Below, piece by piece: positions 16,733 through 28,134 of a DNA stretch of 35,806 bases. Origin of the DNA: Cryptosporangium minutisporangium (GTDB lineage: Bacteria; Actinomycetota; Actinomycetes; Mycobacteriales; Cryptosporangiaceae). The stretch is from positions 181,610 through 217,415 of the forward strand of contig NZ_BAAAYN010000011.1 of NCBI RefSeq assembly GCF_039536245.1, in the 5' to 3' direction. The position numbers and the translations under genes are program-made. Positions within the stretch are counted from its first letter, which is position 1, and every line of letters starts with the position of its first letter. The notes beneath the pieces are model-generated. The model ran no database searches. It was not told where the DNA came from and saw only the letters and a program-made list of their open reading frames with translations.

Positions 16733-17440
16733 ATGACTGCAAATGAACCCTTTTCGATCTCCGCTCTTCCTGGAGGTCGCGCGACCTCAGCAGTGGCCGA
16801 TCGAAAAGAGTTCATTGCGTACCAGCCGTCGATCTTGGAGCTCGCCGACACGGACGCTCGGCTCGGCCCGCTGGCCGGCCGCATCCGCCGTCATCCGCTC
16901 TCCGCGGGCGCCTGGGTCGACCATCTGCCGGGCTGGGTCCGCGGTTCCGACGCGGTGTTCCAGACGCTGCTCTCCGACGTCGACTGGCGCGCCGAGCGCC
17001 GCGAGATGTACGACCGCGAGGTCGCCGTCCCCCGGCTGCTGCGCTGGTACGGCGGCTCCGAGACGCTGCCGCACCCGCTGCTCACCGAAGCGCGCGAGGA
17101 GCTCTCCGCCTACTACGCCGACGAACTGGGCGAGCCGTTCGTCACCGCCGGGATGTGCCTGTACCGCGACGGCCGGGACAGCGTCGCCTGGCACGGCGAC
17201 ACGCTGGGGCGCTCCGCGGTCAGCGACACGATGGTCGCGATCGTCTCGTTCGGCTCGGCGCGACCCCTGCTGCTGCGCCCGCGCGGCGGTGGTGCCAGCC
17301 TGCGGTTCCCGGTCGGCCACGGCGACCTGATCGTGATGGGCGGGTCCTGCCAGCGCACCTGGGAGCACGCGGTCCCGAAAACCGCCCGCGCCGTAGGCCC
17401 TCGCGTCAGCGTCCAGTTCCGCCCCGTCGACGTGGCCTGA
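16733..17440 (+). CDS. AlkB-like 2-oxoglutarate/Fe(II) dioxygenase
   Basis: A 235-residue protein of the AlkB family, which oxidatively removes alkyl groups from nucleic-acid bases. The iron ligands are visible as H154-x-D156 (WHGDTLG) and H212 (TWEHAVP), with 2-oxoglutarate-binding arginines R224/R230 near the end (GPRVSVQFR). The family-typical N-terminus (AYQPSILE) begins near residue 29. The preceding residues 5-27 are encoded by a 69-nt inverted-repeat element also found at the start of the beta-galactosidase gene. I keep the ATG at 16733 because a -10 box lies exactly 6 nt upstream. An ATT at 16814 occupies the place of the ATG at 22971 in the other copy. It is divergent from the methyltransferase. 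Confidence 0.87.
   Translation: MTANEPFSISALPGGRATSAVADRKEFIAYQPSILELADTDARLGPLAGRIRRHPLSAGAWVDHLPGWVRGSDAVFQTLLSDVDWRAERREMYDREVAVPRLLRWYGGSETLPHPLLTEAREELSAYYADELGEPFVTAGMCLYRDGRDSVAWHGDTLGRSAVSDTMVAIVSFGSARPLLLRPRGGGASLRFPVGHGDLIVMGGSCQRTWEHAVPKTARAVGPRVSVQFRPVDVA
16745..16813 (+). repeat. 69-nt inverted-repeat element, copy A (5' end of the AlkB-like gene)
   Basis: Left arm GAACCCTTTTCGA (16745-16757) and right arm TCGAAAAGAGTTC (16801-16813) pair with one mismatch around 43 nt. Copy B at 22901-22969 has the same arms, the same 43-nt spacer and the same right flank (CAWTGCGTA). The spacer contains a perfect 16-bp palindrome GAGGTCGCGCGACCTC (16773-16788) and is otherwise unlike that of copy B. 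The T/A-rich arms stand out against the GC-rich surroundings. Confidence 0.7.
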
Positions 17441-17464
17441 TCCCTATCGACGCCTGCCGGGTGA

Positions 17465-17490
17465 ACGCCGGTCCCTTCCGCGACCGGCGT
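17465..17490 (+). terminator. Hairpin terminator after the AlkB-like gene
   Basis: ACGCCGGTC (17465-17473) and GACCGGCGT (17482-17490) form a perfect 9-bp stem with an 8-nt loop, 25 nt behind the stop. No T-run follows. Confidence 0.6.
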
Positions 17491-17668
17491 CCCCCGCCAC
17501 CGGCCGTGACGTCCCGCCCCGCCGTAGGTGGCTGCTGACCCACCCTCCGGTGGCTGGGGGTATGCAGGGCGCGCGCCTCGGCCGCCCGCCACCGCACGGC
17601 CACAATTCGCCGTCCCGAGCCCTCGCCGCACCACCGCAGACGCGGCCTTCCCGAAAACCACCCGCGCG

Positions 17669-17698
17669 CCACCGCCACCCGGGGCGCGCGGGCGGTGG
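17669..17698 (-). terminator. Possible hairpin terminator after the acyl-CoA ligase gene
   Basis: CCACCGCC (17669-17676) and GGCGGTGG (17691-17698) enclose 14 nt, 22 nt beyond the minus-strand stop at 17720. The rest of the 279-nt convergent gap holds only this, the hairpin at 17465-17490 and a small CCACC/GGTGG hairpin (17540-17553). Confidence 0.4.
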
Positions 17699-17719
17699 TC
17701 GCGAGAAGTCGGCGCGACC

Positions 17720-19270
17720 CTAGTGCACCTGGCGGGTGTGGCCCTTCCAGAACGGCTCGCGGAGCTTGAACTTCTGGAGCTTGCCCGTAGCAGTACGCGG
17801 CAGCGCGTCGACGAACTCGACCCGCTTGGGGCACTTGTACCCGGCCAGCCGCGCCCGGCAGTGCGCGATCACGTCCTCGGCCGTCACCGGCGTGCCGTCG
17901 GTGATGATGAGCGCCGTCACCAGCTCGCCCCACTTCTCGTCGGGGATGCCGATCACCGCCACCTCGCGCACCGCCGGGAGCGAGTTGAGCACGTCCTCGA
18001 CCTCGATCGACGACACGTTCTCGCCGCCCGAGATGATCACGTCCTTCTTCCGATCGGTGATCGTCAGGTAGCCGTCGGAGAACTCCCCACCGTCCCCGGT
18101 GTGGAACCAGTTGCCGGCTTGAGCTTCGACCGTCGCCTCCGGGTTCTCCCAGTAGGCGTCCAGGTTGTGGTTGGTCTGCGCCAGCACCTCCCCACCGGCG
18201 TCCACGGCCAGGCGGACGCCGATCGCGGGCGCGCCCGCGCGGCCGAGCAACCGGGCCTGCTCGGACGGGTCGAGGTCGTCCCACTCCGCCCGCATCCGGT
18301 TGATCGTCAGCAGCGGGGCGGTCTCGGTCAGGCCGTAGATCTGGATGAACTCCCAGCCGAGGTCGGACCGGATCCGCTCGATCGTCCGGGTCGGCGGCGG
18401 CGCGCCGGCGAGGACCACCCGCATCCGGTCCCGCCCGGGGATCTCGCCGTCCCACGACTCCGCAGCTTCCAGCACCGCGTTCAACACCGCGGGCGCCGCG
18501 CACGCCAGCGTCACGCCGTGGTCCCGCACCCGGCGCAGGATCTCTGCGCCGTCCACTTTGCGCAGCACCACCTGGGGCACGCCCAGTCCGGTCATCGCGT
18601 ACGGCATTCCCCAGCCGTTGGCGTGGAACATCGGCAGCGTGTGCAGGTAGACGTCCCGGTCGGTGACGCCGGTGTGCAGCGCGAACACGGTGGCGTTCAG
18701 CCAGTTGGCCCGGTGGGTGAGTTGTACCCCCTTCGGCCGGGCGGTGGTGCCGGACGTGTAGTTCAGCGTGCAGGTCGCGTTCTCGTCGCCCTCCCAGGGG
18801 CGAGGAGAGACGTCGGACCCGTGGCCGAACATCTCCGCGTCGTTCTCACCCAGCACGACCGTGTGCTTCGCGGTCACGCTGTCCAACAACCCGCGCAGCT
18901 CCGGGTCGACGAGGAGCACGTCCGCGTCGCAGTGCCCGACGATGTAGGAGATCTCGTCGGCGCCCAGGCGGAAGTTGATCGGCACCAGGATGCGGCCCCA
19001 TCCGGAGACGCCGAACAGCGAGGTGAGCATCCGGCCGGCGTTGTGGGAGACGATCGCCACCCGACCGCCCACCGGCACACCGAGCCCGTCCAGCCAGGCC
19101 GCCTGGTGGCGGGCCATCGCGGCGAGCCGGCCGTAGGTCACGCTGCCCAGCGACGGCGCCGGCTGGTTCGGCTCGTCGACGAAGCCGATTCGGTCCGGGT
19201 ACACCGTCTCGGCCCGGTCGAGGAAGTCCTTCACGTTGAGCGGATAGAACACCGACCACCTCCGCGACAT
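17720..19270 (-). CDS. Fatty-acyl-CoA synthetase/ligase (AMP-binding, ANL superfamily)
   Basis: A 516-residue adenylate-forming enzyme that activates a carboxylic acid with ATP and transfers it to CoA. The P-loop motif is YTSGTTARPKGVQLTH (171-186), with Ala in place of the common Gly after TT. Next come the aromatic motif YGLTETAPL, the adenylate motif WFHTGD, the hinge (TITDRKKDVIISGGENVSS) and the C-terminal catalytic lysine (PRTATGK, Lys497). Length and motif wording match actinobacterial FadD-type medium- or long-chain ligases; the chain length used cannot be read from sequence. It starts at the ATG at 19270; the longer open frame upstream is Arg/Ala-rich and not protein-like. It is divergent from the galactoside operon and probably unrelated to it. 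Confidence 0.92.
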   Translation of the reverse strand: MSRRWSVFYPLNVKDFLDRAETVYPDRIGFVDEPNQPAPSLGSVTYGRLAAMARHQAAWLDGLGVPVGGRVAIVSHNAGRMLTSLFGVSGWGRILVPINFRLGADEISYIVGHCDADVLLVDPELRGLLDSVTAKHTVVLGENDAEMFGHGSDVSPRPWEGDENATCTLNYTSGTTARPKGVQLTHRANWLNATVFALHTGVTDRDVYLHTLPMFHANGWGMPYAMTGLGVPQVVLRKVDGAEILRRVRDHGVTLACAAPAVLNAVLEAAESWDGEIPGRDRMRVVLAGAPPPTRTIERIRSDLGWEFIQIYGLTETAPLLTINRMRAEWDDLDPSEQARLLGRAGAPAIGVRLAVDAGGEVLAQTNHNLDAYWENPEATVEAQAGNWFHTGDGGEFSDGYLTITDRKKDVIISGGENVSSIEVEDVLNSLPAVREVAVIGIPDEKWGELVTALIITDGTPVTAEDVIAHCRARLAGYKCPKRVEFVDALPRTATGKLQKFKLREPFWKGHTRQVH

Positions 19271-19565
19271 CGAGCCCACCGTTGCGCTCCGCTCCGGCGG
19301 CCGCCCGATCGGGCCCAGCCCGGTGCGTAGCGCCAGGCTCGCGCGCCGCTCGGCACAGCGCAAGCGGAACCGCGGTGTCCGCCCTGGACGTCATCGGACC
19401 GCGCCGACTCGTCGCACCGTGTTGCCTTACCGACGGTCACTGTGAGCGCAACAACATCCACCCAAAAATCGACAAGGGACAAATCCGACGTTGCTCGTTC
19501 CAGTGAGGCAGTTCACCCTTCAAACCTTCAGCTGGTCACTAACTGTTTACGAAGAGTTGTCGCGT

Positions 19566-19580
19566 GTTGCGCAAACGTTA
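19566..19580. promoter_or_regulatory. LacI-family-like operator upstream of the galactoside operon
   Basis: TTGCGCAA (perfect, 19567-19574) runs into AACGTT (perfect, 19574-19579), giving the CpG-centred A/T-flanked look of LacI/GalR-family sites. It lies just upstream of the candidate -35. No LacI-type gene is in the window, so the protein that reads it is unknown. Confidence 0.35.
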
Positions 19581-19590
19581 CCGGCGCCCG

Positions 19591-19619
19591 TTGACGGCCC
19601 CGATGGGTTCTGGTGAAGT
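19591..19619 (+). promoter_or_regulatory. Candidate promoter of the galactoside operon
   Basis: TTGACG (19591-19596), a 17-nt spacer, then TGAAGT (19614-19619). The -35 is a near-consensus hexamer; the -10 is weak. TAATGT at 19628-19633 is an alternative -10. Confidence 0.45.
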
Positions 19620-19633
19620 GTGCGCACTAATGT

Positions 19634-19652
19634 TGGATCCCGTCGTGATCCA
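19634..19652. promoter_or_regulatory. 19-bp dyad in the operon leader
   Basis: TGGATC (19634-19639), 7 nt, GATCCA (19647-19652): a perfect dyad just downstream of the promoter, in the usual place for a repressor site. Candidate target of the DeoR protein encoded in the operon (inference). Confidence 0.45.
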
Positions 19653-19658
19653 CACGGC

Positions 19659-19665
19659 AAGGAGG
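19659..19665 (+). promoter_or_regulatory. Strong ribosome-binding site of the solute-binding protein
   Basis: AAGGAGG lies 7 nt before the ATG at 19673, the best ribosome site in the window. It fits the high output needed for a binding protein. Confidence 0.85.
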
Positions 19666-19672
19666 CGCACTG

Positions 19673-20983
19673 ATGCCCACCCCTTCGCTTGACTCCCTGG
19701 TCAACCAGAGCGGCATGAACCGTCGCTCCGTTCTCCGCGCGTTCGGGCTCGGCGCTGTCGGGATCGCGGCGTCCCCGCTCCTGGCGGCGTGCACCGGCGC
19801 GGACAGCGGCTCGGGCAGTGGTACCGGCACCGTCACGTTCGGCTCGAACGGCTCCGACGAGGTGCCGAAGCGGGCGTTCGCGGCCATGATGAAGACCGCG
19901 AAGGACTCCGTTGATCTCGAAGTCAAGATCAACACGGTTCCCCACAACGACTTCCAGAACAACATCAACAACTACCTCAAGGGCAGCCCGGACGACGTCT
20001 TCACGTGGTTCGCCGGCTACCGCATGAAGTCGTACGCGAAGCAGGGCCTGCTCGCCGACATCGACGACGTCTGGGAGAAGGTCGGCGGCAACTTCTCCGA
20101 CGCGTTCAAGACGGCCTCCACCGCCGACGACGGCAAGAAGTACTTCATTCCGAACTACAACTACCCCTGGGGCTGGTTCTACCGGCCGAGCGTCTGGAAG
20201 GAGAAGGGCTACACCGAGCCCAAGACCTGGGACGAGCTCATCGCGCTGACCAAGAAGATGAAGGCCGACGGGCTCACCCCGATCGCGTTCGGCGACAAGG
20301 ACGGCTGGCCGGCGTTCGGCACGTTCGACTACCTGAACATGCGCCTCAACGGCTACCAGTTCCACATCGACCTGATGGGTCACAAGGAGAGCTGGGAGGA
20401 CGCGAAGGTCAAGCAGGTCTTCACGACCTGGAAGGAGCTCTTCCCCTACCAGGCCGCCGGCGCGCTCGGCCGCACCTGGCAGGAGGCGGCGCAGACCGTC
20501 GTCCAGAAGAAGTCCGGCATGTACCTGCTCGGCACGTTCGTCGGCCAGCAGTGGCCCAAGGGCGACACCGACATCGACTTCTTCCCGTTCCCGGAGCTCG
20601 ACAGCAACGTCGGCGCGGACGCGGTCGAGGCCCCGATCGACGGCTTCATCCTGAGCAAGAAGGGCGGCGAGAACGACAGCGCCCGCAAGCTCATGGAGTT
20701 CCTCGCGTCCGGTGAGGCCCAGGACGTCTACCAGTCCGAGGACCCCAACAACGTCGCCGCGTCCAAGGAAGCCAGCACGGACAAGTACACCGCGCTGCAG
20801 AAGAAGTCGGCCGAGGTGATCGGTTCGGCGAAGAACATCTCGCAGTTCCTCGACCGGGACGCCGAGCCCGCGTTCGCGAACAACGCCGCGCTCCCGGCCT
20901 TCCAGGAGTTCCTCAAGGACGGTGACGTCAACGCCGTGACCAAGGGTCTCGAGGCGCAGGCCAAGCAGATCTACGGCAGCTGA
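19673..20983 (+). CDS. ABC sugar-binding lipoprotein (family 1 extracellular solute-binding protein)
   Basis: A 436-residue receptor for a carbohydrate ABC importer. The N-terminus has a twin-arginine segment (NRRSVLRAFG), a hydrophobic stretch and a lipobox (LLAAC, Cys40), so it is predicted to be Tat-exported and lipid-anchored on the outer face of the membrane. The mature body shows the periplasmic-binding-protein family 1 pattern, including YNYPWGWFYRPSVWKEKGY and PKTWDELIALTKKMKADGLT. It is the first gene of the operon, followed 5 nt later by the permeases. The operon's GH42 enzyme suggests the ligand is a beta-galactoside or galacto-oligosaccharide (inference). Confidence 0.93.
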   Translation: MPTPSLDSLVNQSGMNRRSVLRAFGLGAVGIAASPLLAACTGADSGSGSGTGTVTFGSNGSDEVPKRAFAAMMKTAKDSVDLEVKINTVPHNDFQNNINNYLKGSPDDVFTWFAGYRMKSYAKQGLLADIDDVWEKVGGNFSDAFKTASTADDGKKYFIPNYNYPWGWFYRPSVWKEKGYTEPKTWDELIALTKKMKADGLTPIAFGDKDGWPAFGTFDYLNMRLNGYQFHIDLMGHKESWEDAKVKQVFTTWKELFPYQAAGALGRTWQEAAQTVVQKKSGMYLLGTFVGQQWPKGDTDIDFFPFPELDSNVGADAVEAPIDGFILSKKGGENDSARKLMEFLASGEAQDVYQSEDPNNVAASKEASTDKYTALQKKSAEVIGSAKNISQFLDRDAEPAFANNAALPAFQEFLKDGDVNAVTKGLEAQAKQIYGS

Positions 20984-20988
20984 TCGGC

Positions 20989-21963
20989 ATGACGACGACC
21001 CCCCAGGCCACAGTGGCCACACCCAGCACACCGGCCCAGCGCTCCACGACCGGCGGGAAACGGAAGAAGCTTCGCCGTCTCACCGGGCGGGACAAGCTCG
21101 TCCTCGGGCTGATGGTCGGTATCCCGACGCTGATCGAGCTGCTGCTGGTCTGGGGGCCGGCGCTGTTCTCGGTCCTGCTCGGGTTCACCGACGCGCGGAC
21201 CGACATCGACCAGCCAGGCGGAGTCAACTGGGCCGGGCTGGACAACTACGAGTTCATCACCGGGGAGTACCCGCCGTTCTGGCCCGCGGTCTGGCACAAC
21301 GTCATCTGGCTGGTCTTCCTGGCCGTGCTCGCCACTCCGCTCGGCCTGTTCATCGCGGTGCTGCTCGACCAGAACCTCCGCGGGTCCCGGGTCTACCAGA
21401 GCATCTTCTTCGTCCCGGTGATGCTCTCGCTCGCGCTCGTCGGCATCATCTGGCACCTGATCTACAGCCCGGACGGCGGTCTGCTGAACAGCGTGCTCGG
21501 CACCGCGGGCACCGAAGACCAGATCGACTGGTTCGGCGATTCGAGCATCAACCTCTGGGCGGCGCTCGTCGCGGCGTCCTGGAAACACGTCGGCTACATC
21601 ATGATCCTGTACCTGGCCGGCTTGAAGGGCGTCGATCCGTCGCTGCGCGAAGCCGCTCAGATCGACGGCGCCAACGCGGTCCAGACGTTCTTCCGCGTGG
21701 TCTTCCCGGCGATGCGCCCGATCAACATCGTGGTCGTCGTCATCACGGTCATCGAGGCGCTCCGCGCGTTCGACATCGTCTACGTGATCAACCGCGGCAC
21801 GAACGGCCTCGAACTGCTCTCCGCGCTCGTCGTCCAGAACCTGGTCGGTGAGGGCACCCAGATCGGCGTCGGCGCCGCGATCGCGACCGTGCTGCTGGTG
21901 ATCTCCCTGGTACCGATCGTCACCTACCTCTGGCAGACCTTCCGGAAGGAGGAGGAGCGATGA
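20989..21963 (+). CDS. ABC sugar permease, MalF-type
   Basis: A 324-residue inner-membrane component with six or so hydrophobic helices and a long basic N-terminal tail (TGGKRKKLRRLTGRDK). The EAA loop that docks the ATPase is visible (REAAQIDGANAVQTFFRVVF). Only 5 nt separate it from the binding-protein stop, with no clear ribosome site, so translation is probably coupled. Its stop overlaps the next permease start (ATGA). Confidence 0.93.
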   Translation: MTTTPQATVATPSTPAQRSTTGGKRKKLRRLTGRDKLVLGLMVGIPTLIELLLVWGPALFSVLLGFTDARTDIDQPGGVNWAGLDNYEFITGEYPPFWPAVWHNVIWLVFLAVLATPLGLFIAVLLDQNLRGSRVYQSIFFVPVMLSLALVGIIWHLIYSPDGGLLNSVLGTAGTEDQIDWFGDSSINLWAALVAASWKHVGYIMILYLAGLKGVDPSLREAAQIDGANAVQTFFRVVFPAMRPINIVVVVITVIEALRAFDIVYVINRGTNGLELLSALVVQNLVGEGTQIGVGAAIATVLLVISLVPIVTYLWQTFRKEEER

Positions 21964-22892
21964 CCGTGCTCACCGAGCCGACCGGGGAGACCACAACGCC
22001 GATCGCCCCGTCGAAGTCCACTCACAGCGGCCCGAAGGTGAGCCGCGGCGGACGGATCTTCAGCTACTCGTTCCTGACGATCACCGCGGTGCTCTGGATG
22101 ATCCCGCTGGTCTGGACGATCTACACGTCGCTGCGCCCGGAGAAGGACACCCAGAAGTACGGCTACCTGAGCACCGGCGGGTCGTTCAACTTCGACAACT
22201 ACGCCCAGGCGTGGAACCAGGGCGGGTTCTCGAACTACTTCCTGAACTCGGCGATCATCACGATCCCGGCGGTCGTCCTCACGCTCGTGTTCGCCTCGAT
22301 GGTGGCGTTCGCGGTCTCCCGGTTCCGGTGGCGGTTCAACATCACGCTGCTGATCCTGTTCACCGCCGGAAACCTGCTGCCGCAGCAGATCCTCGCCGCA
22401 CCGCTGTTCCAGCTCTACAAGCACTTCGAGCTGCCGTACTCGGTGAGCGACTCCGGGTCGCTGCTCAACACGTACTACGGCGTGATCGCGGCGAACATCG
22501 CGTTCCAGGTCGGCTTCTGCACGTTCGTCCTGAGCAACTACATGAAGGCGCTGCCCGGCGAGCTCACCGAGGCCGCGATGGTCGACGGCGCCGGCGTCTG
22601 GAAGCAGTTCTGGAAGATCATCCTCCCGCTGTGCCGCCCGGCCTTGGCCGCGCTCGCCACGCTCGAGGTGATCTGGGTCTACAACGACTTCTTCTGGGCC
22701 CTGCTGTTCATCCAAACCGGCGACCGGCTACCGGTCACGACCGGTATCAACAACCTGTTCGGCCAGTACGCGCAGAACGACAACCTGATCGCGGCCGGCG
22801 CGCTGCTCACCGCCATTCCGGTACTCGCCATCTACGTGGCGCTCCAGCGCCAGTTCGTCGCCGGTCTCACTCTCGGCTCCAACAAGGGTTGA
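21960..22892 (+). CDS. ABC sugar permease, MalG-type
   Basis: A 310-residue membrane protein pairing with the preceding permease. The EAA loop (LTEAAMVDGAGVWKQFWKII) and the MalG-like ending (ALQRQFVAGLTLGSNKG) are clear. It starts by a 4-nt overlap, with GGAGGAG just upstream. No ATPase gene follows. In actinomycetes a shared ATPase of the MsiK type, encoded elsewhere, commonly energises such importers (established for the family; inferred here). Confidence 0.93.
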   Translation: MTVLTEPTGETTTPIAPSKSTHSGPKVSRGGRIFSYSFLTITAVLWMIPLVWTIYTSLRPEKDTQKYGYLSTGGSFNFDNYAQAWNQGGFSNYFLNSAIITIPAVVLTLVFASMVAFAVSRFRWRFNITLLILFTAGNLLPQQILAAPLFQLYKHFELPYSVSDSGSLLNTYYGVIAANIAFQVGFCTFVLSNYMKALPGELTEAAMVDGAGVWKQFWKIILPLCRPALAALATLEVIWVYNDFFWALLFIQTGDRLPVTTGINNLFGQYAQNDNLIAAGALLTAIPVLAIYVALQRQFVAGLTLGSNKG

Positions 22893-22898
22893 TAAACG

Positions 22899-25040
22899 AT
22901 GAACTCTTTTCAACCTCAGGTATCGCCACAGGCTGAACAATCTCCGTTCGAGTCGGTCGAAAAGAATTCAATGCGTAACGCGGGCCTGCGGGCGGTCACC
23001 GCCCGCCTCGGCGGCAAGCTGGCCTACGGCGGCGACTACAACCCCGAGCAGTGGCCGGAGTCGGTGTGGCTCGAGGACGTCGCGCTGATGAGGGAGGCCA
23101 AGGTCAACCTGGTCTCGGTCGGCATCTTCTCGTGGGCCAAGCTCGAGCCCGCCGAGAAGGAGTACGACTTCGGCTGGCTCGACCGCGTCCTGGACCTGCT
23201 GCACGACAACGGCATCGCGGTCGACCTGGCCAACGCGTCGGCCACGCCGCCGCCGTGGTTCTCCCGCCGGTACCCGGACTCGCTCCCGGTCGACGCGGAC
23301 GGCCAGCGGCGCTGGTACGGGGCGCGGCAGGCGTTCTGCCCGTCGTCGTCGGACTACCGCACGGCGACCGCCCGGCTGACCCGGACGATCGGTGAGCGGT
23401 ACGCCGAGCACCCGGCGGTGGCCATGTGGCACGTCCACAACGAGTACGGCTGCCACAACTGGCACTGCTACTGCGACGCGTCGGCCGAGGCGTTCCGCGC
23501 CTGGCTGCGCGAGCGCTACTCCACCCTGGACGCTCTCAACGAGGCTTGGGGAACCGCGTTCTGGAGCCAGCGCTACTACGACTGGGCCGAGGTCATCCCG
23601 CCGCGCACCCCGGCCTACAACACGTTCGCGAACCCGACCCAGCAGCTGGACTTCTGGCGGTTCTCCTCGGACGAGCTGCTGGACTGCTTCCGGGCCGAGG
23701 CGGAGATCCTCCGCGAGGTGTCCGCTAGGAACCCGGTGCCGGTCACCACCAATTTCATGACGTTCTTCAAGCCGCTGGACTACTGGGCCTGGGCAGCCGA
23801 GCAGGACCTGATCTCCAACGACCACTACCGGATCGCCGCGGGCTTCGGCGAGGTGTCGCCGCAGACGGACGCCACGCACGACCTGGCGATGTCCGGCGAC
23901 CTGATCCGGTCGCTCGCCGGTGGCCAGCCCTGGCTGCTGATGGAGCACTCGACGTCGGCGGTGAACTGGCAGCCGCGCAACCCGGCGAAGCTCCCCGGCC
24001 AGCTCCGGCGGGACAGCCTCACCCACACCGCCCGGGGCGCCGACGGTGCGCTGTTCTTCCAGTGGCGGCAGTCGAAGGCCGGTGCCGAGAAGTTCCACTC
24101 CGCGCTGGTACCGCACGCCGGCACCGACACCCAGCTCTGGCGCGACGTCACGCAGCTCGGCGCTGACCTGGAGAACCTCGCCGAGGTCGCCGGGTCGACG
24201 GTGCGCGCCGAGGTCGCGATCACCGTGGACTGGGAGAGCTGGTGGGCGATCGAGCTCGACTCGCACCCGAGCGTCGAGGTCACCGGGCTGGGTGAGCTGC
24301 GGCGGTTCCACCGGGCGCTGTGGGAGCGCGGGGTCGCCTGCGACTTCGTCCACCCCGACCACGACCTCTCGGCGTACCGGCTGGTCATCGTGCCGACGCT
24401 GTACCTGACCGGCGGCGAGGCCGGACCGAACCTGACCGAGTTCGTCGAGGCGGGCGGCACCGCGCTCGTCACCTACTTCTCCGGGATCGTCGACCACAAC
24501 GACCACGTCCGGCTCGGTGGTTACCCGGGCGCGTTCCGCGAGTTGCTCGGCGTCCGGGTGGAGGAGTTCAACCCGCTGCTCGCCGGGGACAGCGTCCGGA
24601 TCGACGGCCTGGAGGCCGCCGGCATCGGCACGCTCTGGGCCGAGGCCGCGACCGCCACCACGGCGGAGGTGCTCGCCAGCTACGGAGACGGCCCGCTCGC
24701 GGGCCGGCCGGTGCTCACCCGCAACGCGGTCGGCAACGGCGAGGCCTGGTACCTCGGCACCCGGCTGGACGGGGCGAGCCATGCCGCCCTGGTCGGCCGG
24801 TTGCTGCGGACCGCACGCGTCGAGCCGGTGCTGCCGCTGGCCGAGTGGCCGGCGGGGCTGGACGTCGTGGAGCGGGTCGGCGGGGGGACCCCGGCCGCGC
24901 GGTACCTCTTCGCGATCAACCACTCCGACTCCGCGGTTGCCCTGCCGGTGCGGGGGAAGAACCTGCTCACGGGCCTCGACTGGGCCGAGACCGACGAGGT
25001 CGGTGCCGGTGCGGTGGCCGTGATCTCGTTGGTCCCCTGA
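22899..25040 (+). CDS. Beta-galactosidase, glycoside hydrolase family 42
   Basis: A 713-residue cytoplasmic enzyme (no signal peptide) that splits terminal beta-galactosides with retention. The TIM barrel begins at KLAYGGDYNPEQWPE. The acid/base glutamate is E182 (HVHNEYG) and the nucleophile E349 (LLMEHSTSAVNW). Cys147, 185, 190 and 192 resemble the zinc cluster of several GH42 enzymes. A glutamine-amidotransferase-like trimerisation domain (residues about 420-640) and a small C-terminal beta domain follow, the usual GH42 layout. The first 24 residues overlap a 69-nt inverted-repeat element; the true start may be the ATG at 22971 rather than 22899. The length is otherwise normal. It lies between the importer and galK. 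Confidence 0.94.
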   Translation: MNSFQPQVSPQAEQSPFESVEKNSMRNAGLRAVTARLGGKLAYGGDYNPEQWPESVWLEDVALMREAKVNLVSVGIFSWAKLEPAEKEYDFGWLDRVLDLLHDNGIAVDLANASATPPPWFSRRYPDSLPVDADGQRRWYGARQAFCPSSSDYRTATARLTRTIGERYAEHPAVAMWHVHNEYGCHNWHCYCDASAEAFRAWLRERYSTLDALNEAWGTAFWSQRYYDWAEVIPPRTPAYNTFANPTQQLDFWRFSSDELLDCFRAEAEILREVSARNPVPVTTNFMTFFKPLDYWAWAAEQDLISNDHYRIAAGFGEVSPQTDATHDLAMSGDLIRSLAGGQPWLLMEHSTSAVNWQPRNPAKLPGQLRRDSLTHTARGADGALFFQWRQSKAGAEKFHSALVPHAGTDTQLWRDVTQLGADLENLAEVAGSTVRAEVAITVDWESWWAIELDSHPSVEVTGLGELRRFHRALWERGVACDFVHPDHDLSAYRLVIVPTLYLTGGEAGPNLTEFVEAGGTALVTYFSGIVDHNDHVRLGGYPGAFRELLGVRVEEFNPLLAGDSVRIDGLEAAGIGTLWAEAATATTAEVLASYGDGPLAGRPVLTRNAVGNGEAWYLGTRLDGASHAALVGRLLRTARVEPVLPLAEWPAGLDVVERVGGGTPAARYLFAINHSDSAVALPVRGKNLLTGLDWAETDEVGAGAVAVISLVP
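22901..22969 (+). repeat. 69-nt inverted-repeat element, copy B (5' end of the beta-galactosidase gene)
   Basis: Left arm GAACTCTTTTCAA (22901-22913) and right arm TCGAAAAGAATTC (22957-22969) pair with two mismatches around exactly 43 nt, as in copy A (16745-16813). ATG (22971) follows the right arm by 1 nt. The element starts 8 nt after the permease stop, so it lies within the polycistronic mRNA. Confidence 0.7.
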
Positions 25041-25063
25041 GAGGTCTGGAAAGGACAGTGGGC

Positions 25064-26239
25064 ATGCGCGAATCAGCCAGCTGGCTGGCGCCGGGTCGGG
25101 TCAACCTGATCGGCGAGCACACCGACTACAACGACGGCTTCGTGCTGCCGCTGGCGATCGAGTTCGGCTGCAGAGCGACGGTGTCGCCCGGGCCGGACGG
25201 GCTGCTCCGGTTCGTCTCGGCGCAGGAGTCGGAGCCGGTCGAGGTGCCGGTCGAGGGCCTTGCCCCGGACGGTGTCCAGGGGTGGGCCGCCTACCCGGCC
25301 GGCGTCCTGTGGGCGCTCGGGGTTGACCTGCCCGGCCTGACGGTCACGGTCGACTCCGACGTCCCACTGGGTGCCGGGCTGTCCTCCTCCGCCGCGCTGA
25401 CCTGCTCGGTCGCGGCGGCCGCGAACGACCTGCTGGAACTCGGGCTGTCCCCGCGCGAGCTGGTCGCGGTCGCCCGCAAGGCCGAGAACGGCTTCGTCGG
25501 CGCGCCGACCGGCGGCATGGACCAGCTGGCCTCCATGCTCGGCGAGGCCGGATCCGTGCTCTTCTGCGACATGCGCTCGCTCGACGTGCGGCCGGTCCGG
25601 TTCGCGCTGGACGACGCGGGACTCGCCCTGCTCGTGGTGGACTCGAACGCCCCCCACCGGCACGCCGACGGCGAGTACGCGGCTCGCCGAAAGGCCTGTG
25701 AGCAGGCGGCGTCGGTGCTCGGCGTCTCCGCCCTGCGGGACGTGACCCTCGACGGTCTGGACGAGGCGCTGGCGAAGCTGGCGCCCGAGCCGGACGGGGA
25801 CGTCCTGGTGAAGCGGGCGCGGCACATCGTCACCGAGAACGCCCGGGTCACCGACGTCGTAGCGCGGCTGGACGCGGGGCAGATCCGCGAGATCGGGCCG
25901 CTGCTCACCGCCTCGCACGCGTCGATGCGCGAGGACTTCGAGATCACGGTGCCGGAGGTCGACGTCCTCGTCGAGGCGCTGCTGGCCGCAGGCGCCCACG
26001 GCGCCCGGATGACCGGCGGGGGCTTCGGTGGGTGCGTGATCGCGCTGGTCGACAACGACGCGGTGGCCGCCGCGGCGCGCGCCGCGGCGGACGCGGCGGC
26101 GGCACACGGCTTCGCCGCACCGCGGACCTTCGTCACCGCGCCCGCCGCCGGTGCGCACGCCGTGGACCCTTCCGGGGCCGAGCCACCCCGGCAGCCACCG
26201 GTCGACACGAACGCATCGGGGGCGCCCGATGCTGGCTAG
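25064..26239 (+). CDS. galK: Galactokinase
   Basis: A 391-residue GHMP kinase that phosphorylates galactose at C1 with ATP, the first Leloir step. It has the galactokinase signature (GRVNLIGEHTDYNDGFVLP, 11-29), the GHMP ATP loop (PLGAGLSSSAALT, 101-113), the catalytic-base segment (GGMDQLAS, Asp153) and the C-terminal glycine motif (GARMTGGGFGGCVIAL). The ATG at 25064 is chosen over the GTG at 25058 because AAAGGA then sits at the normal distance. The last 30 residues are Pro/Ala-rich, and the final 11 nt overlap the DeoR gene. Its place directly after the beta-galactosidase fits use of the released galactose. Confidence 0.95.
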   Translation: MRESASWLAPGRVNLIGEHTDYNDGFVLPLAIEFGCRATVSPGPDGLLRFVSAQESEPVEVPVEGLAPDGVQGWAAYPAGVLWALGVDLPGLTVTVDSDVPLGAGLSSSAALTCSVAAAANDLLELGLSPRELVAVARKAENGFVGAPTGGMDQLASMLGEAGSVLFCDMRSLDVRPVRFALDDAGLALLVVDSNAPHRHADGEYAARRKACEQAASVLGVSALRDVTLDGLDEALAKLAPEPDGDVLVKRARHIVTENARVTDVVARLDAGQIREIGPLLTASHASMREDFEITVPEVDVLVEALLAAGAHGARMTGGGFGGCVIALVDNDAVAAAARAAADAAAAHGFAAPRTFVTAPAAGAHAVDPSGAEPPRQPPVDTNASGAPDAG

Positions 26240-27029
26240 TCAGCGGCAGGCGCGCATCGTCGAGGAGATCCGCCGCGGCGGCGGGGTGCGGGTCAGCGAC
26301 CTCACCGAGCTGCTCGGTGTCTCCGACATGACGGTCCGGCGCGACCTGGAGGTGCTGGCCAAGGCCGGCGTGCTCCACAAAGTGCACGGCGGCGCGGTAC
26401 TGGCCAACTCCCGGCGCACCGACGAGCCGGGGTTCGCGGTGAAGAGCGCACTGCAGCAGCCGGCGAAGGAGGCGATCGCCGCGCGCGCGGCCGAGCTGAT
26501 CACGCCGGGCACCGCGATCGCGCTCTCCGCAGGCACCACCACGTGGACGCTGGCCCGGCACATCACCGCGATCCCGGAGCTGACCGTGGTGACGAACTCG
26601 ACGACGGTCGCCGACATCCTGGAGGCCCAGGCGCCCCGGGCCGGCTTCACGGTCATCCTCACCGGTGGAGTACGGACGCCCAGCGCGGCGCTGGTGGGGC
26701 CGGTCGCCGACCAGTCGATCGCGTCGCTCCACGTCGACCAGCTGTTCCTCGGCATGCACGGCATGGACGCGGTGGCCGGGCTCACCACGCCCAACCTCGC
26801 CGAGGCCCAGACCAATCGAGCGCTGATCAACAGCGCGCGCGAGGTGGTCGTGCTCGCCGACTCCACCAAGTGGGGCATCGTCGGGCTCGCCGACTTCGGA
26901 CCGCTCTCCACCGCCGACGTCCTCATCACCGACAGCGGCCTCCCCCCGGCCGCGCACGACATCCTGGCCGAGGCCGTCGGCGAGCTCATCGTCGTCGACG
27001 CCGCTGCCGACCACCCCGCCGTCCAGTAA
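26229..27029 (+). CDS. DeoR family transcriptional regulator of the galactoside operon
   Basis: A 266-residue repressor-type protein. The N-terminal DeoR HTH (RQARIVEEIRRGGGVRVSDL, SDMTVRRDLEVL, LHKVHGGAVL) is followed by the sugar-phosphate-sensing DeoR C domain (ALSAGTTTWTLARHI, VTNSTTVADIL, VILTGGVRTPSAALVGP, VVVLADSTKWG). The length is typical. It starts 11 nt inside galK and is followed 19 nt later by galT, so the regulator is made with the enzymes. DeoR proteins of this type are usually released by a phosphorylated sugar, here plausibly galactose-1-phosphate or a related metabolite (inference). A candidate site is the dyad at 19634-19652. Confidence 0.92.
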   Translation: MLASQRQARIVEEIRRGGGVRVSDLTELLGVSDMTVRRDLEVLAKAGVLHKVHGGAVLANSRRTDEPGFAVKSALQQPAKEAIAARAAELITPGTAIALSAGTTTWTLARHITAIPELTVVTNSTTVADILEAQAPRAGFTVILTGGVRTPSAALVGPVADQSIASLHVDQLFLGMHGMDAVAGLTTPNLAEAQTNRALINSAREVVVLADSTKWGIVGLADFGPLSTADVLITDSGLPPAAHDILAEAVGELIVVDAAADHPAVQ

Positions 27030-27048
27030 CCGTCGTCGAGGACCGCAC

Positions 27049-28134
27049 ATGAGCAACATCACCGAGATCAACCTCTCCGACGGACGGGAGCTGTTCTACT
27101 TCGACGACGCCCCCGGCACCGACCGATCCGCCGTCGACGAGCGCGGGCTGCCCGCGGTGACCAGCACCTCCGAGCGCCGGTGGGACGCGCTGGCCGGTGA
27201 GTGGGTGGTGATCGCCGGGCATCGGCAGAGCCGCACGTTCCTGCCGCCGACCGACCAGTGCCCGCTCTGCCCCACCCGCGACGGACACCAGACCGAGATC
27301 CCGGCGTCCGACTACGACGTCGTCGTGTTCGAGAACCGGTTCCCCTCGCTCTCCACCGCGGCGACCGGGGCGTCGTCGCTGACCGGTCGAGGGCTGTTCC
27401 ACACCGAGCCGGGGCACGGGCGCTGCGAGGTCGTCTGCTTCACCAGCGACCACAACGGCTCGTTCTCCCAGTTGCCGGCGGCGCGGGTCCGCACGGTGCT
27501 CGACGCGCTCGCCGACCGGACCGCGGCGCTGGGCCGGATCGAGGGCGTCGAGTACGTGTTCTGCTTCGAGAACCGGGGCGAGGAGATCGGCGTCACGCTC
27601 TCCCACCCGCACGGGCAGATCTACGCGTACCCGTTCGTGCCGCCCCGGATGGAGCGCATCCGGCAGTCGCTGCGGGATTACCACGAGACCACCGGCGAGT
27701 GCCTGCAGTGCGCCCAGCTCGCCGCCGAGCACGCCGACGGTGCCCGGGTCGTGGAGAAGGGGACGCACTTCACCGCGTACGTGCCGTTCGCCGCGCGCTG
27801 GCCCTACGAGGTGATGATCGTCCCGCACCGGCACGTCCCGGACCTGCCCGCGCTGGACGAGGCGGAGCGGGCCGAGCTGGCCGAGCTCTACCCGGCCGTG
27901 CTGCGCCGGTTCGACGGCCTCTTCGATACGCCCGCGCCGTACATCGCGGGCTGGCAGCAGGCCCCCACCCGCCAAGACCGGGACCAGTGGCACCTGTCCC
28001 TGCAGGTGTTCTCGATCCGGCGCGCGCCGGGCAAGCTCAAGTACCTGGCGGGTTCGGAGTCCGGCGCCGCGGTGTGGATCAACGACATCGCGCCCGAGCG
28101 GGCCGCCGCGGCGCTGCGCGGCGAGGACCGGTAG
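27049..28134 (+). CDS. galT: Galactose-1-phosphate uridylyltransferase
   Basis: A 361-residue enzyme that exchanges UMP between UDP-glucose and galactose-1-phosphate, the second Leloir step. The active-site H186-P-H188-G-Q190 is present (LSHPHGQIYAYP), where the second histidine carries the UMP. The zinc cysteines appear as C71-x-x-C74 (CPLC). The C-terminal segment HLSLQVFSIRRAPGKLKYLA is typical. The ATG at 27049 has GAGGA 8 nt upstream. It is the last gene of the operon. galE, needed to complete the pathway, is not in the window. Confidence 0.95.
   Translation: MSNITEINLSDGRELFYFDDAPGTDRSAVDERGLPAVTSTSERRWDALAGEWVVIAGHRQSRTFLPPTDQCPLCPTRDGHQTEIPASDYDVVVFENRFPSLSTAATGASSLTGRGLFHTEPGHGRCEVVCFTSDHNGSFSQLPAARVRTVLDALADRTAALGRIEGVEYVFCFENRGEEIGVTLSHPHGQIYAYPFVPPRMERIRQSLRDYHETTGECLQCAQLAAEHADGARVVEKGTHFTAYVPFAARWPYEVMIVPHRHVPDLPALDEAERAELAELYPAVLRRFDGLFDTPAPYIAGWQQAPTRQDRDQWHLSLQVFSIRRAPGKLKYLAGSESGAAVWINDIAPERAAAALRGEDR

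Follow-up and report, generated by a model that had tools for sequence, protein, structure and literature searches.

A short palindromic mobile element of frame-keeping length in Cryptosporangium

Two unrelated genes in a 35,806-nt stretch of the genome of Cryptosporangium minutisporangium (contig NZ_BAAAYN010000011.1, positions 181,610 to 217,415; hereafter the window), encoding an AlkB-like 2-oxoglutarate (2OG)-Fe(II) oxygenase and a beta-galactosidase of family GH42, carry the same short inverted repeat near their starts. The question raised by this locus is whether the repeat is a mobile element or a regulatory leader hairpin. An earlier note had proposed both, and its positions for the two copies, their arms and the shared right flank, CAWTGCGTA, were all found on reading the sequence. 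The repeat is a short palindromic non-autonomous mobile element that has spread in one genus, with most copies in the window's own genome; its length is frame-keeping and it has been active since the species of the genus split.

The window's genome (i.e. G000; 9.23 Mb in 152 contigs) was compared with three congeners (i.e. G001, G002 and G003), all of which are without the insertion at both window genes. The described 69-nt repeat, extended by one base on each side, forms a 71-nt unit, and the empty sites give a gain on insertion of 72 nt. Copy A of this unit occupies 16744-16814 of the forward strand, within an open reading frame (ORF) for the AlkB-like protein (16733..17440, forward; 235 aa) whose match to PF13532 covers residues 121-229. 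All three congeners start this gene with ATG-ACY-GCG-ATY-GCG and no insertion; G002 reads ATG ACT GCG ATT GCG TAC (empty site, ATTGCGTAC) where G000 reads ATG ACT GCA [72 nt] ATT GCG TAC. The insertion itself (16742..16813, forward) consists of AAT and a 69-nt core, GAACCC...GAGTTC, forms codons 4-27 of the ORF, and has a left arm at 16744..16759 (TGAACCCTTTTCGATC) and a right arm at 16799..16814 (GATCGAAAAGAGTTCA), the final A of which is old target. Both copies do lie near gene starts, as had been claimed; the AlkB ORF, however, starts upstream of its copy, at ATG 16733, and is interrupted after codon 3. The predicted product contains a 24-residue internal insertion, NEPFSISALPGGRATSAVADRKEF, which follows codon 3 and precedes the original fourth codon.

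Copy B (22900-22970, forward) stands at the beta-galactosidase gene, where the 72-nt insertion (22898..22969, forward; GAT plus the 69-nt core GAACTC...GAATTC) provides an ATG at 22899 and has its left arm at 22900..22915 (TGAACTCTTTTCAACC) and its right arm at 22955..22970 (GGTCGAAAAGAATTCA). By comparison with G002 the native start is ATG 22971, now behind the right arm: G002 reads GATAGAT ATG AGT AAC (empty site, ATGAGTAAC; insertion-free reading, GATAGATATGAGTAACGC) and G000 reads GATAAAC [72 nt] A ATG CGT AAC. Because G002 also differs by one base just upstream, the net gain computed automatically against it at this gene is 73. G001 and G003, also insertion-free, diverge more around the start and are shorter before it, so that G002 alone offers a usable junction. 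AAGGG at 22884..22888 (forward), probably the ribosome site, is 10 nt ahead of the element's ATG; in G002, where the site is empty, the distance to the native ATG is 9 nt. Translation likely initiates at 22899, producing a 713-aa protein (22899..25040, forward; PF02449 from residue 46) with a 24-residue N-terminal extension, MNSFQPQVSPQAEQSPFESVEKNS, and copy B may have a local effect on beta-galactosidase translation.

Both copies belong to a dispersed family. An arm-spacer-arm pattern matched 24 times in G000, at 23 places as one palindromic copy matched on both strands, versus no match for a reversed-pattern control. Alignment of the 24 copies gave the 71-nt unit, TGAAYTCTTTTCRACC-N39-GGTCGAAAAGARTTCA, and the family consensus is a palindrome with 16-bp arms and a 39-nt loop, TGAAYYCTTTTCRACC-N39-GGTCGAAAAGARTTCA. 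A covariance model was built from these 24 copies for a genome census, in which counts are lower bounds, with up to 150 candidates scored per genome in the first look. With both strands counted, matches numbered at least 107 in G000, 46 in G002, seven in G003 and two in G001; rescored with one strand per place, these became at least 103 distinct places in the four genomes of one genus, i.e. at least 76 in G000 (four shorter than 65 nt), 22 in G002, four in G003 and one in G001. Two more G002 places (L196 and L197) were read and left outside the 103. The earlier note had named the lack of any other copy in the genome as part of a refutation; at least 74 other places were found in G000.

Matches were confined to these four genomes among 397 sampled from the order, the other 393 giving none at E <= 1e-4 with stricter filters and 12 candidates scored per genome. 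Outside the genus, an exact pattern scan, which may omit records close to the window's genome, returned 25 stretches in general genome contigs and one in viral contigs; all 26 were scored with the model, five were read by eye and only one (L237) resembles the element. This lone look-alike lies at 93-159 of a contig from a Pseudonocardia metagenome-assembled genome (JAQSWF010000066.1), is 67 nt long, scores 35.8 bits and reads TGAGCACTTTTCAACC...GGTCGAAAAGAGCTCA followed by CTG. An exact pattern written from it, as opposed to the model, occurred once in that 3.4-Mb genome, and the look-alike may point to a wider, patchy family. Another stretch, L244, scored 31.6 bits and was rejected as a member as it is without the spacer and flank features.

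The insertional origin was examined genome-wide: of the 74 other copies in G000, 64 had their two flanks joined, in queries of 32 copies each, and searched for in the three congeners. Including both window copies, a spanning aligned empty site was found in a congener for 43 of the 72 G000 copies measuring 65 nt or more. Net gain as compared to the best relative was 72 nt at 20 of these 43 sites and 69-73 nt at 37. A gain of 72 nt was observed at all eight sites within ORFs (AlkB, L074:3803, L083:2529, L073:2548, L103, L091, L110:2539 and L119, the last lying just 24 nt short of the ORF end) as against 12 of 35 others, the beta-galactosidase among them (Fisher P = 0.0009, grouping post hoc). 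Three sites are filled in both G000 and G002 (L075/L149, L078:14574/L138 and L106/L145) and are therefore older; L099 and L151 look alike across the same two genomes and may be paralogous. The family of copies and the absence of the element from both genes in three congeners support the proposal of a small palindromic mobile element that adds N-terminal residues.

Junctions were analysed in 95 copies, i.e. the 99 of at least 65 nt in the four genomes minus four repeating a counted site. A typical insertion comprises a variable dinucleotide and a 70-nt unit, TGAAC...GTTC, and follows the C of a target that resembles YC|ANTG(A). C stands at -3 in 64 of the 95 copies, and TTC is followed by A (0.86), any base, T (0.66) and G (0.44); many targets are without TGA. 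In aligned empty sites the right side of the junction is unchanged target and the left side has two variable bases before TGAAC. The likeness of the two right flanks in the window is thus a coincidence plus target preference, as these flanks are old target sequence in G002. The dinucleotide before TGAAC is almost free (14 of 16 types observed; GA in 26 copies, AT in none), and its inheritance as part of the element was rejected since it is common to nearest-neighbour copies in 6 of 65 cases, against an expectation of 11.4. Separately, the base left of GAAC was T in 8 of 13 copies whose base right of TTC is not A, as compared to 73 of 82 otherwise (P = 0.022), and at L080:2577, L093:2502, L091:2571 and L122:2477 the base left of GAAC complements that right of TTC.

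These junctions bear directly on the strongest alternative, a classical miniature inverted-repeat transposable element (MITE), i.e. a deletion derivative of a DDE insertion sequence (IS) making a target duplication of 2-5 bp, with the left copy since drifted. Shortness, copy number and precise insertion all suit a classical MITE, and inverted ends starting with TGAAC occur in some IS3-family elements. The dinucleotides on the two sides are equal in 16 of the 95 copies; this is, however, only slightly over the 10.2 expected, and the left bases differ from the target in copies with three concordant empty relatives (L072 and L077). Empty sites exhibit a gain of 70 nt plus two bases not matching the target, duplications of 2, 3 or 5 nt were rejected from the 95 copies and the empty sites, and the duplication foreseen by the earlier note is not found. 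Also, no long element with these arms was detected in G000 and G002 at one mismatch or fewer. A classical MITE is unlikely. The element has short length, no transposase coding, terminal inverted repeats, multiple copies and empty orthologous sites, and is without the target-site duplication; it is termed MITE-like and strict membership is not claimed because that trait is absent.

The mobile element has a length of 24 codons, and frames were counted in 67 copies of 71 nt. On the forward strand 62 of them have the NTG-AAC-TCT frame open, and on the reverse strand 51; the two strands encode NSF(Q/R)P...VEK(N/S)S in matching frames, which makes the element a coding palindrome. For the GAA frame the corresponding counts are 40 and seven. 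A stop interrupts the frame starting with TGA in 55 copies read forward and 58 read in reverse, and in most cases this initial TGA is the only one. With 72 nt making 24 codons and the NTG-AAC frame uninterrupted in most copies on either strand, translation can continue through insertions that lie inside genes. Shuffling of the inner 39 nt gave an expected 52.6 open copies for the NTG-AAC frame and 50.6 for the GAA frame; with one frame above and the other below its shuffles, and with the copies related, selection on the spacer is not established.

Positions relative to genes were classified for all 99 copies, four repeated sites included. The element's TGA exactly ends a gene in 16 (seven on the same strand and nine on the opposite strand), 19, among them the two window copies, stand at a same-strand start or no more than 30 nt 5' of it, 14 are inside ORFs (11 same-strand and three opposite-strand, some ORF calls being doubtful), 32 are intergenic and 18 are otherwise placed (12 of them within 30 nt of an opposite-strand start). 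For control CANTG sites at the same loci (n = 1296), about 2% (about 26) are on stops and 64% inside ORFs, giving an excess of the element on stops with P = 5e-9 (counts from rounded fractions); for YCANTGA sites (n = 107), 6.5% (i.e. seven) are on stops and 45% inside ORFs. The rarity of copies inside ORFs as compared to motif sites fits removal of harmful insertions. Empty sites illustrate placement at stops: L072 has changed CAC TGA to CAA TGA and L077, on the opposite strand, retains AAG TGA.

In-frame insertion is backed by empty sites or homologues in a riboflavin synthase, QueA, a GGDEF protein, an Mca-like protein, a TROVE protein (L073:2548, element internal) and a GH51 protein. The riboflavin synthase (L091), whose site is empty in congeners, has 29 residues between domains 1 and 2 versus six in 1kzl. 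The queA site (L074; PF02547) is empty in G002 and G003, the alignment with 1wdi being loose around the insert. In the GGDEF-EAL protein (L110) the GGDEF match ends at residue 372, where the insert starts, and the site is empty in congeners. Alignment of the GH51 arabinofuranosidase of G002 (L144) with 1pz3 leaves 22 residues unpartnered between SASED and SLFAVNR, the element being read here on the opposite strand. By these comparisons the element is an in-frame addition of 24 predicted codons in riboflavin synthase, QueA, the GGDEF protein and the arabinofuranosidase. Near N-termini it occurs in the Mca-like PIG-L protein (L103) and an MqnC/CofH-like radical-SAM protein (L147), and opposite-strand copies are present in a protein kinase tail (L073:14341) and a cutinase-PKD protein (L141). 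L137, L123 and L127 were considered as copies inside ORFs and left unused for want of a convincing protein context.

Some copies form pairs in opposite orientation 1-3 kb apart (L072 2511-2581/3948-4012, L074 2585-2654/3803-3873 and L110 2539-2609/5643-5713); queA holds one copy of the L074 pair, and the GGDEF-EAL gene one of the L110 pair.

The spacers, described earlier as unrelated, belong to a family with two subtypes, one per window copy: copy A is of subtype 1 and copy B of subtype 2. Median pairwise identity is 0.845 for subtype 2 versus 0.718 for subtype 1, and subtype 2 is taken to be the younger since its copies are more alike. The arms are more conserved than the spacer and co-vary over 67 distinct copies, with changes on both sides in 12 of 16 pairs. 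Double-change cells number 28, above the 7.3 +/- 2.1 of shuffles and above every slid control (the nearest, at +1, gave 23). This signal stems from the larger and more diverged set, the first 24-copy consensus having exhibited almost no covariation. Because the arms co-vary, palindromy seems to be maintained, most simply since it is required by the enzyme that moves the element or by a hairpin intermediate.

A second alternative has the AlkB-like and beta-galactosidase genes co-regulated by an operator or a 5'-leader RNA hairpin, the left arm masking a ribosome site in the right arm. Covarying arms and the 5' location of both window copies accord with such a hairpin, as does folding of both as RNA: copy A gave -37 kcal/mol (z -5.65) and copy B -21.8 kcal/mol (z -2.0). 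Three other copies, however, fold at z -2.8, -1.8 and -0.5, and with strong folding in copy A and weaker folding in the rest a conserved RNA function gains little ground. Furthermore, the AlkB start codon lies upstream, placing the hairpin within coding sequence; the congeners do without the element at both genes; the scanned proteins carrying or adjoining it exhibit no common theme; and 80 of the 99 copies are away from same-strand starts. With only 19 copies at or just 5' of such a start, translational control by a leader hairpin is not supported as the element's function and is very improbable. Least credible is a repeat, convergent or ancestral, that selection has retained as a functional site (e.g. 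protein-binding, nucleoid or terminator-like) and that the congeners have lost: the conserved and covarying arms are in its favour, but many independent exact losses would be needed, as the same 72-nt difference appears in two or three congeners at many loci, coding frames are intact in the empty relatives of AlkB and others, and matches in the order sample are limited to one genus.

A palindromic non-autonomous mobile element, with a 72-nt gain, codons rebuilt at insertion and movement in trans, is very probably the correct account of the repeat as a whole. Its ends, TGAA...TTCA, would reproduce the TGA of the target, in register on both strands, so that a stop or start codon is rebuilt on insertion; copies would then persist where they are harmless, i.e. 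at gene ends, at starts and in tolerant places of proteins. An enzyme supplied in trans would act on the palindromic ends to move the element, and recombination of a circle junction, TTC-NN-TGAA, with YC-AN-TGA would yield the product observed. In a more specific and tentative version, which has somewhat less than an even chance of being right, the ends mimic a palindromic codon-boundary target (TC-AN-TGA), integration, perhaps by circle-junction recombination, rebuilds the codon on either strand, and the 72-nt two-strand frame hides the element from translation at any landing site, so that inside proteins it amounts to 24 tolerated residues.

Several observations weigh against this account. 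The net gain differs from 72 nt at 23 of 43 sites, in part through decay and in part through alignment noise, and at two of the eight within-ORF sites another relative gives a different value (71 for AlkB as compared to G003, and 69 for L103). No spanning empty site was found among the loci compared for 29 of the 72 copies, five of which (L096, L108:2548, L127, L128 and L129) were outside the flank queries. A clean target duplication is missing, the left dinucleotide equalling the right only slightly more often than expected, as given above. The position classes depend on a home-made ORF caller, and the stop-codon excess is weak versus the YCANTGA motif (16/99 versus 7/107, P = 0.044), so that the target motif itself explains part of the preference. 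Shuffled spacers leave the forward GAA frame open in more copies than the real ones do (50.6 versus 40 of 67), and the spacer is therefore not generally selected for openness. Finally, no autonomous partner with the same arms was detected in G000 and G002: ends with up to one mismatch either have a mate at the spacing of the element itself or are single. Thirteen unpaired ends (L182-L194) were read, of which four (L183, L187, L189 and L193) can be recognised as shortened or decayed copies, and none of the 13 has a second end at IS distance among ends with up to one mismatch; three places with more of the element (L195-L197) were read beside them. This search was made on a draft assembly, and a partner may be extinct or diverged.

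Around the beta-galactosidase gene, positions 19673-28134 of the window hold sugar ABC transporter genes, the GH42 beta-galactosidase and a galactose-1-phosphate uridylyltransferase near one another, a possible galactoside-use cluster.

Selfish DNA inside conserved enzymes, as known from Rickettsia palindromic elements (RPEs), is apparently undescribed in Actinobacteria, judging from the open-licence literature; searches of that literature on actinobacterial in-frame palindromes gave nothing that appeared relevant among the papers listed, and those on the genus Cryptosporangium gave no paper. Natural 24-residue insertions with empty sister species offer a resource on the tolerance of proteins to new peptides, and the element is also a case for how palindromic DNA can be translation-neutral. 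Annotated start sites near copies are uncertain, that of the window's beta-galactosidase included.

Among known systems, repetitive extragenic palindromic (REP) sequences and REPINs form hairpins and insert without duplication beside a short fixed flank, as the element appears to do. REP/REPINs, which are moved by Y1 transposases, carry a GTAG-type foot, whereas the element has no such foot and has 16-bp arms and a 39-nt loop. Mycobacterial interspersed repetitive units (MIRUs) insert at DTGA start/stop overlaps and form tandem arrays without a strong dyad; the element, by contrast, is a palindrome whose closest listed copies are >1 kb apart, tandem arrays not having been searched for. MIRUs are described, in the available part of one account, as mobile units inserted at start codons with a -4 spacing (PMC12548453). 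The element is like them in being a small, apparently mobile actinobacterial repeat found at start codons, a placement described for MIRUs as disturbing host-gene expression little (PMC12548453). It is unlike them in that the MIRU ORF is coupled to the next gene at -4 nt (PMC12548453) whereas the element's frame continues into the host gene in both window copies.

Prokaryotic MITEs (i.e. Correia, ERIC and RU-1 to RU-3) share with the element a non-autonomous nature, terminal inverted repeats, tens of copies and some in-frame fusions, as far as the accessible text of two papers describes them (PMC10969869, PMC2759123). Enterobacterial repeat units are found in annotated ORFs (PMC2759123), and MITEs are described as normally intergenic (PMC10969869). 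The element differs from these MITEs in its codon-multiple length, its start/stop-codon register and the lack of a simple target duplication and of any parent IS found in the search described above. In its logic, on comparison of descriptions, the element resembles RPEs and MIRUs, without being shown to be either. RPEs, of about 150 bp, are inserted in frame in Rickettsia metabolic genes and, like the element, are short palindromic mobile repeats placed in frame in unrelated conserved genes where the peptide is apparently tolerated, according to passages of a 2024 MITE review (PMC10969869). As compared by description, the element is unlike RPEs in its 72-nt size, its different phylum, its location mostly at gene ends, its YC|ANTGA-like target and its encoding of the same kind of ends on both strands; a codon-multiple length with codon-matching ends is what it would add to the palindromes known from Rickettsia.

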